This document shows positions 52,989 through 61,400 of a DNA stretch of 64,000 bases, one piece after another. The DNA is from Allobosea sp. CS1GBMeth4. Its GTDB lineage: Bacteria > Pseudomonadota > Alphaproteobacteria > Rhizobiales > Beijerinckiaceae. Position 1 is the stretch's first letter. Every line of letters starts with the position of its first letter. A program made the translations under genes and the position numbers. Below the pieces are notes generated by a model. The model made no database searches. It was not told the origin of the DNA and saw only the letters and a list, made by a program, of their open reading frames with translations. The stretch covers positions 1-64,000 of the forward strand of contig NZ_FYAS01000053.1 in assembly GCF_900185715.1 (NCBI RefSeq), read 5' to 3'.

Positions 52989-53076
52989 CCGGATTGGATC
53001 AATCCGATCGAACCCGTCTCTCACCTCCAGTGAGAGACCGCTTGCTCCGATCGGCGAGCCGATCGGAGCGGGCTCT
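52989..53076 (-). repeat. diverged copy of the CTAGAGCC/GGCTCTAG element
   Basis: In reverse complement this segment follows the 4684-4801 element: AGCCCGCTCCGATC, then GGTCTCTCACTG and GTGAGAGACGGG, then GATCGGATTGATCCAATCC. It is shorter in the first hairpin and has lost the exact terminal repeat. The copies are in opposite orientation about 48 kb apart. Confidence 0.65.
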
Positions 53077-53206
53077 GTGCAGCCGCTTCATCTAGCGAGC
53101 TCCTCGCGCAGGGATCCTAGTGTCCCCAGGTCGGTTCCCGAAGCCTCCCGGGAGCGGGGCGTAACCCCCGCCCGCAGGCGCCGACCCTCACCCAGCCTCT
53201 GGCATA

Positions 53207-53280
53207 CCTCCGGACGGCCGCCCCGTATGGGTGATGGGCGAGGGGAGTGTACGGGAGGTTTCGGGAGCGGGGATGAAGTT
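53207..53280 (+). repeat. repeat A, first copy
   Basis: A 74-base segment starting CCTCCGGACGGCCGCC and ending GGGAGCGGGGATGAAGTT. It recurs at 54327-54400 with only 3 mismatches. Its tail CGGGAGGTTTCGGG is complementary to CCCGAAGCCTCCCG at about 53138, so the copy may be part of a longer palindrome. Confidence 0.8.
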
Positions 53281-53327
53281 GCGGCCTATCCCCGCAAGGC
53301 ACTTGAACCGCAACCAACCTTCTCCCG

Positions 53328-53550
53328 GATGGGAGAAGGTGGCGCGCAGCGCCGGATGAGGGCCTGCCGTTGCCGCAGAAGGTGCAGCGGCTCGGCTGCG
53401 CCTTGACGATCGGCGGCAGGCCCTCACCCCTGCCCCTCTCACTGATCTCGGGCTTGCCCGAGATCAGCACTCAAAGTGTCGAAGTCGGGTAGACCCGCTT
53501 TCGATGCGGGAGAGGGGTTTCCCGCGCTCTGTCCTGAGAGGGGCAGTGCC
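53328..53550 (+). repeat. repeat B, first copy
   Basis: About 223 bases beginning CTTCTCCCGGATGGGAGAAG (a hairpin) and containing GATCTCGGGC-TT-GCCCGAGATC. It recurs in the same direction at 54063-54294. It resembles the common Hyphomicrobiales 'GGGAGAAGGTGGCGCG...CCGGATGAGGG' intergenic repeats. Confidence 0.8.
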
Positions 53551-53654
53551 GGGCCGATAGCAGTGGAGGGGCGCGAAGCGCCGCCTCACGACACCCCCCG
53601 GGAACATCCCCGCCGCGCCGTAGTCTCTGGACCAGGCACGGCATGGAGACGGTG

Positions 53655-54005
53655 ATGAAGGTCTGCAAGTTTTCGCTCGGCGACGCGACGCTGGAACGCT
53701 CGCCCGGACAGGTCGGCGAGGTCTTCGCCGGCAATCTCGTCGACGAGCGCCATGGCGGGCCGGTCACCATCGGCTATGGCCGCTACGGCCCGGATCAGAG
53801 CCTCGCCGAGACGATGGCGGTCGACGACGTCATGATCGTGCTCGAAGGCCGGCTCTCGGTCGAGACGGCGGAGGGAACGCTGACCGCCGGCCCCGGCGAG
53901 ATCGTCTACATGCCCAAGGGCGAGACGGTGACGATCCGCTCGCATGAGGAGGGCGCCGTGACGGCCTATGTCACCTATCCGCACTGGCGCGAGGCGCACG
54001 CCTGA
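53655..54005 (+). CDS. cupin-domain protein (EutQ-like)
   Basis: About 116 residues from ATG 53655 (GGAG site six bases upstream; an ATG at 53643 is also possible). One cupin barrel is visible: VDDVMIVLEGRLSVETAEGTLTAGPGEIVYMPKGETVTIRS. This resembles the EutQ acetate-kinase-like cupin of ethanolamine use, but no other eut gene is present. The usual metal-binding histidines of many cupins are not evident. Function is unknown. It is flanked on both sides by copies of repeats A and B. Confidence 0.8.
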   Translation: MKVCKFSLGDATLERSPGQVGEVFAGNLVDERHGGPVTIGYGRYGPDQSLAETMAVDDVMIVLEGRLSVETAEGTLTAGPGEIVYMPKGETVTIRSHEEGAVTAYVTYPHWREAHA

Positions 54006-54062
54006 GCGAGCACGACCCATCGGCGGAGGTTTGACGGGCGAGGCGAGGGACCCGCGACCGAG

Positions 54063-54294
54063 CCTTCTCCCGGATGGGAGAAGGTGGCGCGGAGCGCCGG
54101 ATGAGGGCCTGCCCTTGCCGATTTAGGTAGCAGCGGCGCGGCTGCGCCTTGACGATCAGCGGCGGGCCCTCACCCCTGCCCCTCTCACTGATCTCGGGCC
54201 TGCCCGAGATCAGCACTCAAAGTGTCGAAGTCGGGTAGACCCGACTTCGATGCGGGAGAGGGTTTCCCGCGCTCCATCCTGAAAGGGCGGTGCC
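54063..54294 (+). repeat. repeat B, second copy
   Basis: About 232 bases, same direction as 53328-53550 and highly similar, differing by scattered changes and small indels. In particular, the part after GCCTGCC reads TTGCCGATTTAGGTAGCAG rather than GTTGCCGCAGAAGGTGCAG. Confidence 0.8.
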
Positions 54295-54326
54295 CGAAGG
54301 CCCGCCCGCAGACGCCGCCCCGCGTC

Positions 54327-54400
54327 CCTCCGGACGGCCGCCCCGTATGGGTGATGGGCGAGGGGATTGTACGGGAGGTTTCGGGAGCGGGGATAAATTT
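54327..54400 (+). repeat. repeat A, second copy
   Basis: A 74-base copy of 53207-53280, differing at three positions. Relative to the first set the order of A and B is reversed (A-B, cupin, B-A), but both A copies and both B copies keep one direction. The accessory two-gene cassette begins 205 bases downstream. Confidence 0.8.
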
Positions 54401-54605
54401 GCGATGAGCTCGCAGTCGCCTCCGCTTGGTTGGAAGACAATTTTATTCGAAGCGTGTCGGTTTACTGCAGCTCTGGCGAGAGTAGTCGCAGCGCCTGATT
54501 GGCTCTTGTCGGCGCGAGCGAGGAAGACGACATTCTGCGGTCAGGCGATTGATTCATCCTCAAAATCGATGCGGCCAACCAGCAGGCGGTTCTTACGGAG
54601 GAATT

Positions 54606-56339
54606 TTGACCCATAGGGCCGATATTGTTGCATGTTGCCAAGCGGGAACGCTTCTGCAACTGCTTGTTGAGCGTGCGCGCCGACATCATAGCGATGAAAT
54701 CGGCAAGGAATTTCGAAGCCATCTGGTAGAACTTCACAACAGTGGCACGATTGATGTGCTTGAAGTGGCGCGATCGATTGGTCAATCTTCAATCAGTGAG
54801 AGCGATTTTTTCTCTGTACAAAGTATATTTATGAAATTGATTCCAGAACTTAAGGCTCCCGCGCCGGCAATGCTCGCTGCGGTCAAGGCGTTGGTGGCGC
54901 GGGGCGGTGACGACGGCGCTGCTAGTTGGCCCAACAGCGCCTACCGTCGCTGGGCAGAGATTGGCAGCCGCGCGCACGCAACGCTCGCGGCAGTCAACCA
55001 AGACGACCCCAATGATGCTGCCTACGTGTTGCTTGGCCTTCAGGCGCTCGCCAGGAATGAGCCGGAGGCAGCGCTCGACCGCGCTATCGCCCTTCTTACC
55101 AACAGTTCGCCTCCTGCCAGATCCGCTGCTGCCAAGGCGGTGGGGACATTGCCGCTCATAACTGACGAAGCACGCAGCCGTGCCGCCAATGCGCTTGAGG
55201 CTGCTCGTGCAAGCTGCGCTGACGACAACCTGTTGGGCCATATCCTGACTGCGATCAGCGAAATTGCTCGCAAAGCGCCCGAATGGGAGCCCTCAGCGTC
55301 GGCAATGATCGCAGCGAGCGAGTGCGATGCCGAGGACCTAGCGATCCACCAAGTATCATTGGAGTTGATGTTCCATGGCAAAGACCTGCCTCCATCAATC
55401 GTCGCTGGGCTCTCCGCGATCGTGCGAAAGGTTCAAGTCCAAGACACTGGGACAATGAATAATATCGACCATGCCGCCAGTTCGTTGATCCGTGCCGGCA
55501 GGGTTGACGAAGGGCTTGCGCTGATCACGCCAATAATCTCGACGCACGAAGCGCTCATTTCTCTTGATATGCTTGATGGTACTAGCCACGCGCTACTCGA
55601 ACTCAGTTGTGATCGGCTTGCGCATGTTGTCGTCAACTGGCTGTTGGCATTCGATACCAATCTCGGTTTAGCAGTACTCAAGCTGGTCGGAAAACATCAC
55701 GGATCGCCTTTGGTACTCGACTTCGACGCCGGCAGCCTCGCGCTTTCCGATGAGAACGCCTTGCTGCTTGCGCACCGTGCGATTGGCTATCTCTTCATCC
55801 ATCCGATCACCGCAGCCTCGATAGTGCTGGCACTGATCCGGGTCGTCGGGCCAGAGGCGCGGCAAGTGATGACAGATATACTTTTTGACCCGCTTTTGAT
55901 CAATTACTCTGGTGAATTCGCGGAGTGGCTCAGGGTTAAGTCCAAGGAAGAAGATGACCCTGGGCTATCGGTAGCTGTAGGTCTGCTTGCTCGGCTGGAA
56001 GCCTATATCGACGGTCTGAGTAAGGTTGGACGAATCAAAGAACTTCGCCCCTCAGAGCGTGAGAGGCTGATAGAGGCGAACCGGCAGCACGAATCAATGC
56101 GGCAGCTGCATAAGGAGGTCGAGAAGAGGTCGGTCCTGATGTCGATCGTAAGCCGATCGGTGCTACTCTATGGTAACCGCTCGATCAGCTATTTCGATCT
56201 AAATGGCGATAAGCAGCGCCATGAGATGAAGCTGCATAAAATGAGCCACAGCATTGAGGCTCCTCGGCTTGACATTCTCGAGCCATTTGAACTGGACTAC
56301 CGACTGAGAGTATTTCGTGCAATGCGGGCTGGGCCATGA
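54606..56339 (+). CDS. large helical-repeat protein, first gene of the accessory cassette
   Basis: I do not recognise a family. The chosen TTG start at 54606 follows GGAGGA (54597-54602) and gives 577 residues; the frame is open to a TTG at 54549. The sequence is almost wholly predicted alpha-helix, with repeated amphipathic 30-40 residue units resembling HEAT/ARM-type solenoids (for example DAAYVLLGLQALARNEPEAALDRA and PPARSAAAKAVGTLPLITD). No transmembrane, P-loop or nuclease motif is seen. The C-terminal 90 residues are charged and more varied (LRPSERERLIEANRQHESM, ISYFDLNGDKQRHEM). GC and codon use differ from neighbours (AAT, TTG, GTT and GAT codons are frequent). It overlaps the next gene by 4 bases. 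Confidence 0.75.
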   Translation: MTHRADIVACCQAGTLLQLLVERARRHHSDEIGKEFRSHLVELHNSGTIDVLEVARSIGQSSISESDFFSVQSIFMKLIPELKAPAPAMLAAVKALVARGGDDGAASWPNSAYRRWAEIGSRAHATLAAVNQDDPNDAAYVLLGLQALARNEPEAALDRAIALLTNSSPPARSAAAKAVGTLPLITDEARSRAANALEAARASCADDNLLGHILTAISEIARKAPEWEPSASAMIAASECDAEDLAIHQVSLELMFHGKDLPPSIVAGLSAIVRKVQVQDTGTMNNIDHAASSLIRAGRVDEGLALITPIISTHEALISLDMLDGTSHALLELSCDRLAHVVVNWLLAFDTNLGLAVLKLVGKHHGSPLVLDFDAGSLALSDENALLLAHRAIGYLFIHPITAASIVLALIRVVGPEARQVMTDILFDPLLINYSGEFAEWLRVKSKEEDDPGLSVAVGLLARLEAYIDGLSKVGRIKELRPSERERLIEANRQHESMRQLHKEVEKRSVLMSIVSRSVLLYGNRSISYFDLNGDKQRHEMKLHKMSHSIEAPRLDILEPFELDYRLRVFRAMRAGP

Positions 56340-58141
56340 AACTCGTTATCCGCGAGTACTTGGCTTCGTTACGTGAGCGCGGTGAACTCGACGCGGTCCT
56401 GCCTGACCTGCTTACGGAGCTTGGTTTCACCGTCTATTCACGGCCTGCGCGCGGGACCCGCCAACATGGTGTCGATATTGCCGCCGTTGGCCTTGGTCCC
56501 GATGGCATAAGGCGGGTCCACCTGTTTTCGGTCAAGTCAGGTAACCTTGATCGTGGTGATTGGAATACAGCATCGCCGCAGAGTTTGCGTCCTTCGCTCG
56601 ACGAGATTCTAGACGTCTATGTCCGAACTCGTATTCCGCCTGAATATGCCAAGCTACCGATTGCGATTTGCTTGTGCTTTGGCGGAGCAATCGACGAGCA
56701 GGTGCGTGCCGAGGTCGCTGGATACACAGAACGCAATACGACTGAGCGAGTCATCTTCGAGGAGTGGAACGGCGATCGCCTCGCTCAAGTAATCCTTGAC
56801 GGCATTCTCCGCGAGGAACTGTTGCCGACATCCTTGCGCAGCCATTTGCGAAAGGCGGTGGCGATGGTTGAAGAGCCCGATATCGCGCTCAATCATTTCG
56901 CCAGGCTGCTGCGTGCCCTAGTTAAAAACCCCGGGACGACCTTAGCGACCCGATTGTCTCAGGCGCGTCTCATAAACATCTGTGTTTGGATCATGTTTGT
57001 CTGGGCTCGCGAGGCCGACAATGTTGAGGCGCCCTATCGCGCAAGCGAGAGTGCTCTGCTTGAAGTTTGGCATCTACTCCGGGGCGACATCGATGGTTCA
57101 GCACGGATTGCGGAGGCTGCCGGCACGGTTCTCAATGCCTTGTTCGAGTTGCATTTTGCGATCTGGGGCGAAATTTTCGAAAAGAAAGTTCTGCCTCATG
57201 CTGACGTCCGGCACGCGCTATCTTCGGCAGTCGGCTCGCATGCCGCGCTCGATGTTAATCTCAAGCTGTTTGAGTTAGTTGGCCGACTGGCGCAAAGAGG
57301 CCTCTGGCAAGTGTGGCAGTTGTGCCCCGACAGTGGGCCGATCGTGGTAACCAATGATCTGATTATTACTCAGTCTAAGCCGCTTAGGGAGATCAACCTA
57401 GCGATATTGAACGAGGTTGACCGACTGTGCGGCAAGCTCATTGCCATAATCAGTAACAATCGGGCACTTCTGTCGCCAATTGGCGACTGGCAGGCGATTG
57501 ATATCGGACTTGCTTTCACACTTCTCGCCTGTCGACCTAGCTACCATGACGCTGTCGATGAATGGGCGCGGGAACTGACGAAGCGCTCAATCTTTGCCCA
57601 CAAGGTTCATGGCCGCTATCCTACAACTAGCAGTTCCTACTGGGATCTTGTTAATCACCCCGCGGATTCCACCGATGTGTACCGGAAGGACGCTACTCAA
57701 GGGAGTATCCTCTACCCAATGCTGGCACTCTGGGCGGCCGCGCGTGGTGATCAGGACTTGGTGGATGAGATCGCTGCATTTCGGGAAAAGGAACTTGCGC
57801 ACTGCACCTTCCAGACATGGCTTCCCGATGAAGACAGCGAAGACAATCTTTACCTCGACCATGATCGTCACGGAGCGGCGCTCACTGGTATTCCAGTGAA
57901 CGAAGGCACGTGCGAGACGCTCGACTTCGTCCTCGATGAGGTTGCTAGCAACCCGCATTTTGACACGTTATCAGCAGTTCGACTTGGCCATTGGCCGATC
58001 GTTGCAATGGCCTGCCGGGTGTATCGTCTGCCGGTGCCGCCGCAAATCTGGCGCTCTTTGCTGCCGGCTGTGCGCCGCCCGACTGCGCCGATAGAGAACG
58101 ATGGGCCGCCAATCGTGGAATCCCCAGGTGAATCAAGCTAG
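56336..58141 (+). CDS. PD-(D/E)XK (Mrr-like) nuclease-domain protein, second gene of the accessory cassette
   Basis: A 601-residue protein translationally coupled to the previous gene (ATGA at 56336-56339). Residues 1-110 match a restriction-endonuclease-like fold. An alpha-1 helix (LDAVLPDLLTELGFTVY, E28) is followed by the strand HGVDIAAVG with D47, a glycine turn, then HLFSVKSGN with K67 in S-x-K. The D...x-V-K layout is that of Mrr-type PD-(D/E)XK nucleases, though the usual E/Q before x-K is Ser65. A second lobe follows (LPIAICLCFGG, IFEEWNGDRLAQVIL). Residues about 180-600 form a long, mostly helical unknown region. The gene ends 2 bases before the convergent uvrA stop. Confidence 0.8.
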   Translation: MKLVIREYLASLRERGELDAVLPDLLTELGFTVYSRPARGTRQHGVDIAAVGLGPDGIRRVHLFSVKSGNLDRGDWNTASPQSLRPSLDEILDVYVRTRIPPEYAKLPIAICLCFGGAIDEQVRAEVAGYTERNTTERVIFEEWNGDRLAQVILDGILREELLPTSLRSHLRKAVAMVEEPDIALNHFARLLRALVKNPGTTLATRLSQARLINICVWIMFVWAREADNVEAPYRASESALLEVWHLLRGDIDGSARIAEAAGTVLNALFELHFAIWGEIFEKKVLPHADVRHALSSAVGSHAALDVNLKLFELVGRLAQRGLWQVWQLCPDSGPIVVTNDLIITQSKPLREINLAILNEVDRLCGKLIAIISNNRALLSPIGDWQAIDIGLAFTLLACRPSYHDAVDEWARELTKRSIFAHKVHGRYPTTSSSYWDLVNHPADSTDVYRKDATQGSILYPMLALWAAARGDQDLVDEIAAFREKELAHCTFQTWLPDEDSEDNLYLDHDRHGAALTGIPVNEGTCETLDFVLDEVASNPHFDTLSAVRLGHWPIVAMACRVYRLPVPPQIWRSLLPAVRRPTAPIENDGPPIVESPGESS

Positions 58142-58143
58142 CG

Positions 58144-61164
<3,021 letters not shown>

Positions 61165-61400
61165 TGCGATGTCCGGTTCGGATGAGCCGTAGAGATAGGG
61201 CAAATGCCGTGCCGTGCCAGTGTGGCCGGGCGACAGGCCGGCATGAGTAGCACGCAGCCCCGGATGTTGCCGCATTGTTCCTGTCTCCTGTGCTGACAAT
61301 GATTGTCAGGAGCGTGGCAGGCGGCGGAAGCGCAGCCGTCATTCACGGGGCGGGCCGAAGGCCTGCGCCCGGAAACCATGAACACGAGGTCCGGTACGCC

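Follow-up and report, generated by a model that had tools for sequence, protein, structure and literature searches.

The two overlapping genes at positions 54,606 to 58,141 of the window (the whole 64,000-nucleotide stretch of Allobosea sp. CS1GBMeth4 DNA analysed here) are very probably an intact, horizontally acquired Olokun anti-phage module occupying a variable site immediately 3′ of uvrA, this being the best overall explanation of the data. The narrower claim of family identity, namely that the cassette is an intact Olokun (OloA–OloB) module, is close to certain. The family identity of both proteins, the operon order and the conserved pairing were observed directly, and the cassette is an unremarkable, complete example of a defence system already described; the place where it sits is of interest.

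Identity, pairing and spread of the gene pair

Both proteins were searched against PADLOC-DB. The first matched OloA (PDLC03925, E-value 4e-107) over residues 13–574 of 577, and the second matched OloB (PDLC03926, E-value 2e-207) over residues 1–576 of 601; at E≤10 a single family was listed for each protein, OloA and OloB respectively, the two proteins of Olokun. Homology over most of the length of both proteins, near full-length profile matches and the gene order, with oloA adjacent to and before oloB, agree with Olokun, and no difference was found for the window pair at the family level. The founding paper on this system is reportedly that of Millman et al. in 2022.

A first-pass annotation, made from the sequence alone, had proposed an undescribed two-gene defence system unless profile searches placed both proteins in one characterised system. 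Novelty was favoured by a search of NCBIfam with both proteins, which returned nothing, by Pfam, in which no match exceeded its cut-off, and by PHROGs, with two weak matches, both at E>0.1. The cassette is nevertheless not a new system, because both proteins match Olokun over nearly their whole length; novelty is refuted at the family level and is considered extremely improbable, and a false lead is removed. The annotation had rightly recognised, within an accessory segment, a defence cassette of the kind that combines a sensor or adaptor with a nuclease. Its interpretation stood in part, without the novelty and without profile support for the label "Mrr-like" (see below).

In the available excerpts of the literature, Olokun stands within a list of systems credited to Doron et al. 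2018 and Millman et al. 2022, with its mechanism listed as unknown (PMC12926258); it is described as lacking thorough characterisation (PMC12592470), is placed under nuclease activity in a table (PMC10855318) and is mentioned with other systems found in mobile islands or hotspots of E. coli and Pseudomonas (PMC10121019, PMC12629846). No mechanism for Olokun was found in such excerpts, subscription papers and preprints being outside the search, and no title on the system was found under the names OloA or OloB.

The TTG start of oloA at 54606 is closely preceded by GGAGG, and its TGA stop, ending at 56339, shares the bases ATGA with the start of oloB, as had been annotated. The TAG of oloB ends 2 base pairs (bp) short of the convergent uvrA stop codon (58144–58146). 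The lower guanine-plus-cytosine (GC) content and different codon use relative to core genes were likewise confirmed: GC was 55.5% in oloA and 55.9% in oloB versus 67.4% in uvrA, and GC at third codon positions was 0.59 and 0.60 versus 0.93. In steps of 1 kilobase (kb), GC went from 0.68 (53–54 kb) to 0.55–0.57 (55–58 kb) and back to 0.67. Consensus promoters and terminators were no more frequent in the region than in shuffled sequences, and an Rfam scan of 53000–58300 gave nothing at gathering scores.

For the pairing of the genes, 31 OloB loci were surveyed (the window, L002, L003, L023–L036, L037–L044 and L047–L052; L and G numbers are our own for loci and genomes), with the fragments L045 and L046 excluded from the count; L050 and L052 appear identical. 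A full-length OloA is encoded directly upstream of OloB in 23 of the 31 (the window, L002, L003, L023–L032, L037, L039–L041 and L047–L052). The partner has about 300 amino acids (aa) in three (L034, L035 and L042), that of L034 covering only positions 313–589 of the 596-position OloA profile, its C-terminal half; full-length and short partners offer a natural comparison. In two further loci the neighbour is long and divergent: that of L044 matches OloA (E-value 1e-22, profile positions 10–489), that of L043 was assigned from size and position only, and our own OloA profile missed both. These divergent pairs may represent a sister system of Olokun. In the remaining three loci (L033, L036 and L038) the pair is interrupted or OloA is cut.

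The order oloA then oloB is kept in homologous loci. Among 18 measured pairs the genes overlap by 4 bp in 14 and by 1 bp in two; an 8-bp gap was measured in the other two, in which the OloB start is uncertain, and the start given in the L034 record yields a 4-bp overlap. The most distant aligned OloB members share 25–29% identity with window OloB, and the solenoid and nuclease-fold partners stay together over large distances. Homologues lying apart from each other in conserved core positions, which the annotation had named as evidence against its proposal, were not the pattern found: the pair occurs together, in variable places.

Some loci showed further features. On a Burkholderia plasmid (L036:8001-11039), oloB is split by an IS3-family transposase gene. 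L045:7624-8527 is the remnant of an Olokun pair, consisting of a 242-aa OloA piece followed by a 64-aa OloB piece. Of 5426 E. coli genomes, two contained DNA resembling the L034 pair. The pairs L047–L052 lie on contigs of the IMG/VR viral collection, perhaps prophages or islands.

The spread of Olokun is sporadic, a point that, like the low GC of the pair, favours the overall explanation given at the outset. OloB gave one match in its own genome. Among 298 genomes of the host family three had a match, and among 398 of the phylum eight (own genome counted in both; one of the eight is a 64-aa fragment); of 72,556 plasmid records, 35 matched, including one short piece. Fourteen of the 35 plasmid matches were retrieved, many of the others being Klebsiella-group records with equal match values. 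No OloB match was present in 50,697 phage records; in IMG/VR viral contigs, none was found by single-protein scan and six loci by profile scan. A second copy from the same genus lies at another place in genome G225, its OloB being 76% identical to that of the window. Used by itself, the OloA profile gives too many matches: it picked up 17 of the 298 family genomes, 13 of these only with E-values of 2e-7 to 9e-4 in short HEAT-like stretches, and in one of the other four, G124, an OloA piece was found at a contig end with no OloB match.

Predicted structures and candidate mechanism

The HEAT-like character ascribed to the first protein proved weak in sequence and clear in predicted structure. 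Pfam gave three weak matches, all below the cut-offs (the best being HEAT_2, PF13646, E-value 0.0056), and a PDB sequence search gave weak helical-repeat matches only (best E-value 0.0017). The AlphaFold2 model (mean predicted local distance difference test score 79, predicted template modelling score 0.71) contains about 30 helices and resembles the HEAT/ARM solenoids of PP2A subunit A, SF3B1 and importins; at about 10% identity, the likeness is one of repeat architecture and does not imply shared function. OloA is predicted to be a HEAT solenoid.

The PD-(D/E)XK fold ascribed to the second protein was missed by Pfam and recovered in a model of moderate quality, in which residues 1–160 are predicted to adopt a FokI-nuclease-like fold with the PD-(D/E)XK core; the comparison covered a list of nuclease families, and families outside that list may also apply. 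Foldseek returned mostly helical repeats among the 50 rows shown for OloB, none at E≤0.001, and no credible relative, whether nuclease or adaptor, emerged from PDB sequence searches using single proteins or profiles. Identity to the FokI cleavage domain (PDB 2fok, 1fok) is 7%; unlike FokI, OloB lacks an acid two residues before the lysine and carries a long helical part after the domain. In an alignment of 22 rows, E14, E17, D19, D47, K67, G69 and R73 are unchanged throughout, and residues 1–40 form the most conserved block of the protein (mean pairwise identity 0.61). D47 and K67 would correspond to the conserved Asp and Lys of the PD-(D/E)XK motif.

The particular mechanism that we propose, with OloA as sensor or brake and OloB as a DNA cutter relying on D47 and K67, is given an even chance of being correct. 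OloA would serve as a scaffold or sensor restraining OloB in uninfected cells, and a phage-derived trigger would touch its solenoid. OloB would then cut phage or host DNA, possibly as a dimer; FokI is known to dimerise. Its active site would be built on Asp47 and Lys67 together with an acid from elsewhere, for example Glu14, Glu17 or Asp19. One point weighs against this proposal and constitutes the main doubt about OloB as a cutter: the acid of the (D/E)xK motif, two residues ahead of the lysine, is missing, the position being occupied by S, T, V, I or L in 22 of 22 rows. Some members of the PD-(D/E)XK superfamily deviate from this acid position.

The missing acid speaks for a catalytically dead domain with a DNA-binding or structural role, the effect then arising from another activity of the complex. 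This explanation is judged unlikely; against it stand the invariance of D47, K67 and the three upstream acids and the conservation of residues 1–40, which fit retained chemistry. A low probability is also assigned to OloB being an Mrr-type modification-dependent restriction enzyme, in which case OloA would help to find modified phage DNA and no infection sensing would take place. The QxGVD...K pattern of OloB does resemble the DxGVD...QxK of Mrr-like domains, GVD...K being common to both, and the nuclease-like fold is in keeping with such an enzyme. Unlike Mrr-type enzymes, however, OloB has no Mrr profile match and a solenoid partner encoded alongside, and Mrr is not known to be paired with a large solenoid protein. 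Pfam assigned no family to window OloB at E≤10, so that Mrr_cat is unmatched, and no nuclease family to 18 homologues at E≤0.1, one weak TPR match being the only one; profile searches thus lend no support to the label "Mrr-like". For the proposed sensor-and-cutter mechanism, the HEAT-solenoid model of OloA and the unusual set of invariant OloB residues provide handles on a system that two papers describe as mechanistically unknown (PMC12926258) or as lacking thorough characterisation (PMC12592470).

The variable site at the 3′ end of uvrA and the neighbours of Olokun

A variable site lies at the uvrA 3′ end. All 61 same-genus genomes searched, the own genome included, contain the 3′ part of the gene. 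Similarity to the window around it breaks off no more than about 11 bases from the stop codon in 27 of 29 relatives; in L069 and L078 it stops about 30 bp earlier. The left flank of uvrA was taken from 20 of 60 relatives (L095–L114; mostly 6 kb, three shorter), and within 1.5 kb of uvrA, blastn at E≤1e-6 found no similarity between any two of the 20 flanks. Low-GC reading frames stand beside uvrA in 17 of the 20, L105, L108 and L112 being without them.

From these flanks 35 frames were picked, of which 30 were scanned with Pfam and 30, partly different, with PADLOC. Strong defence matches (E≤1e-40) to known or candidate families were obtained in six of the 20 genomes (Table 1). They hold at the protein level, a complete gene set being present only for Lamassu (LmuA–C) and for the single-gene type Drt2. 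An excess of defence genes at uvrA over other sites is not shown, because the scan covered the uvrA site and no control site. The flanks L095, L109, L113 and L114 gave nothing clear, and no integrase family was among the Pfam matches (E≤0.001) of the flank frames.

The annotation had placed the cassette between duplicated repeats and the uvrA end. The uvrA border was confirmed; the repeats do not bracket the cassette, because both copies (53.2–53.5 kb and 54.06–54.40 kb) lie to its left. As island borders the repeats were rejected, since they are dispersed genome families: 53317–53545 has 53 genome matches and 53090–53285 has six, each counting itself. One of them nevertheless recurs near the left edge of the variable segment: in 14 of the 17 relatives with low-GC frames, a sequence related to the 82-bp repeat is found no more than about 1 kb from the left edge of those frames. 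A cupin gene (53643–54008) stands left of the cassette; in one relative (L064 and L105) 58 bp separate it from uvrA, an arrangement suggestive of an empty site, and L111 has a cupin-like stretch at a greater distance to the left, resembling the window in this respect.

A wider proposal is put forward tentatively, as possible rather than probable. The uvrA 3′ end would be a genus-wide defence site at which whole modules (Olokun, Lamassu, DRT2, PD-Lambda-5 and Dsr1-like SIR2 genes, and others) replace one another with no integrase of their own, via recombination in uvrA and the repeat-rich left flank, and OloB would be a nuclease with a displaced catalytic acid, acting only once released by OloA. 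Further defence genes of the genus might be sought at this site; narrow literature searches gave no title on a defence site at the uvrA end.

To the left of uvrA in L069 (638–827; G684:C3:406400-406589) stands a second, 85% identical copy of the uvrA 3′ end, followed further out by a low-GC gene; the arrangement may record an exchange that took place through uvrA itself. In G214 a 375-bp match to the uvrA end lies on another contig.

Table 1. Features of the cassette, variant Olokun loci and matches in the uvrA flanks (window positions unless a locus is given)
Feature	Location	Strand	Remarks
oloA, predicted HEAT-type alpha-solenoid protein	54606..56339	+	577 aa, TTG start
oloB, predicted nuclease-fold domain and helical C-terminal part	56336..58141	+	601 aa, ATG start, TAG stop
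ATGA overlap, oloA stop/oloB start	56336..56339	+	from sequence
OloB N-terminal domain, predicted PD-(D/E)XK type, residues 1–160	56336..56815	+	invariant E14, E17, D19, D47, K67, G69, R73
uvrA, core gene, convergent right border of cassette	58144..61299	-	sequence shared with relatives breaks off at its stop codon or close to it
82-bp repeat copy, left edge of low-GC segment	54322..54403	.	sequence and genome search
OloA variants of about 300 aa	L034:7096-7998, L035:7096-7998, L042:8189-9133, L115:10001-10903		
Divergent pair	L044:8268-12243		862 aa and 479-aa OloB-like
Divergent pair	L043:9188-13229		872 aa and 510-aa OloB-like
Strong PADLOC match	L098		PD-Lambda-5_A
Strong PADLOC match	L107		Drt2
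Strong PADLOC match	L110		LmuA, LmuB, LmuC
Strong PADLOC match	L106		Dsr1, parts over two frames
Strong match	L104		TIR effector
Strong PADLOC match	L103		PDC-M57B, candidate family
Weaker or domain-level match	L097, L111		OLD/AriA-type ATPases
Weaker or domain-level match	L102		TIR and caspase-like
Weaker or domain-level match	L101		HD
Weaker or domain-level match	L100		NACHT
Weaker or domain-level match	L096		CHAT and HARE-HTH
Weaker or domain-level match	L099		ParA-like ATPase

The neighbours of Olokun were surveyed in 15 stretches from annotated records. Two of the 15 carry NACHT genes; one stretch each carries SIR2, TIR and ABC-3C genes, RES with AbiEii, a DNA methyltransferase with helicases, and a CD-NTase with ThiF, and in an E. 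coli stretch CHAT, ABC-3C and a retron lie near the pair. Conjugation, arsenic or metabolic genes, not clearly related to defence, were found in two stretches and mixed neighbours in four, two being without annotation. Defence-type neighbours thus occur in several, not all, of the annotated relatives, which supports the reading as an Olokun anti-phage module.
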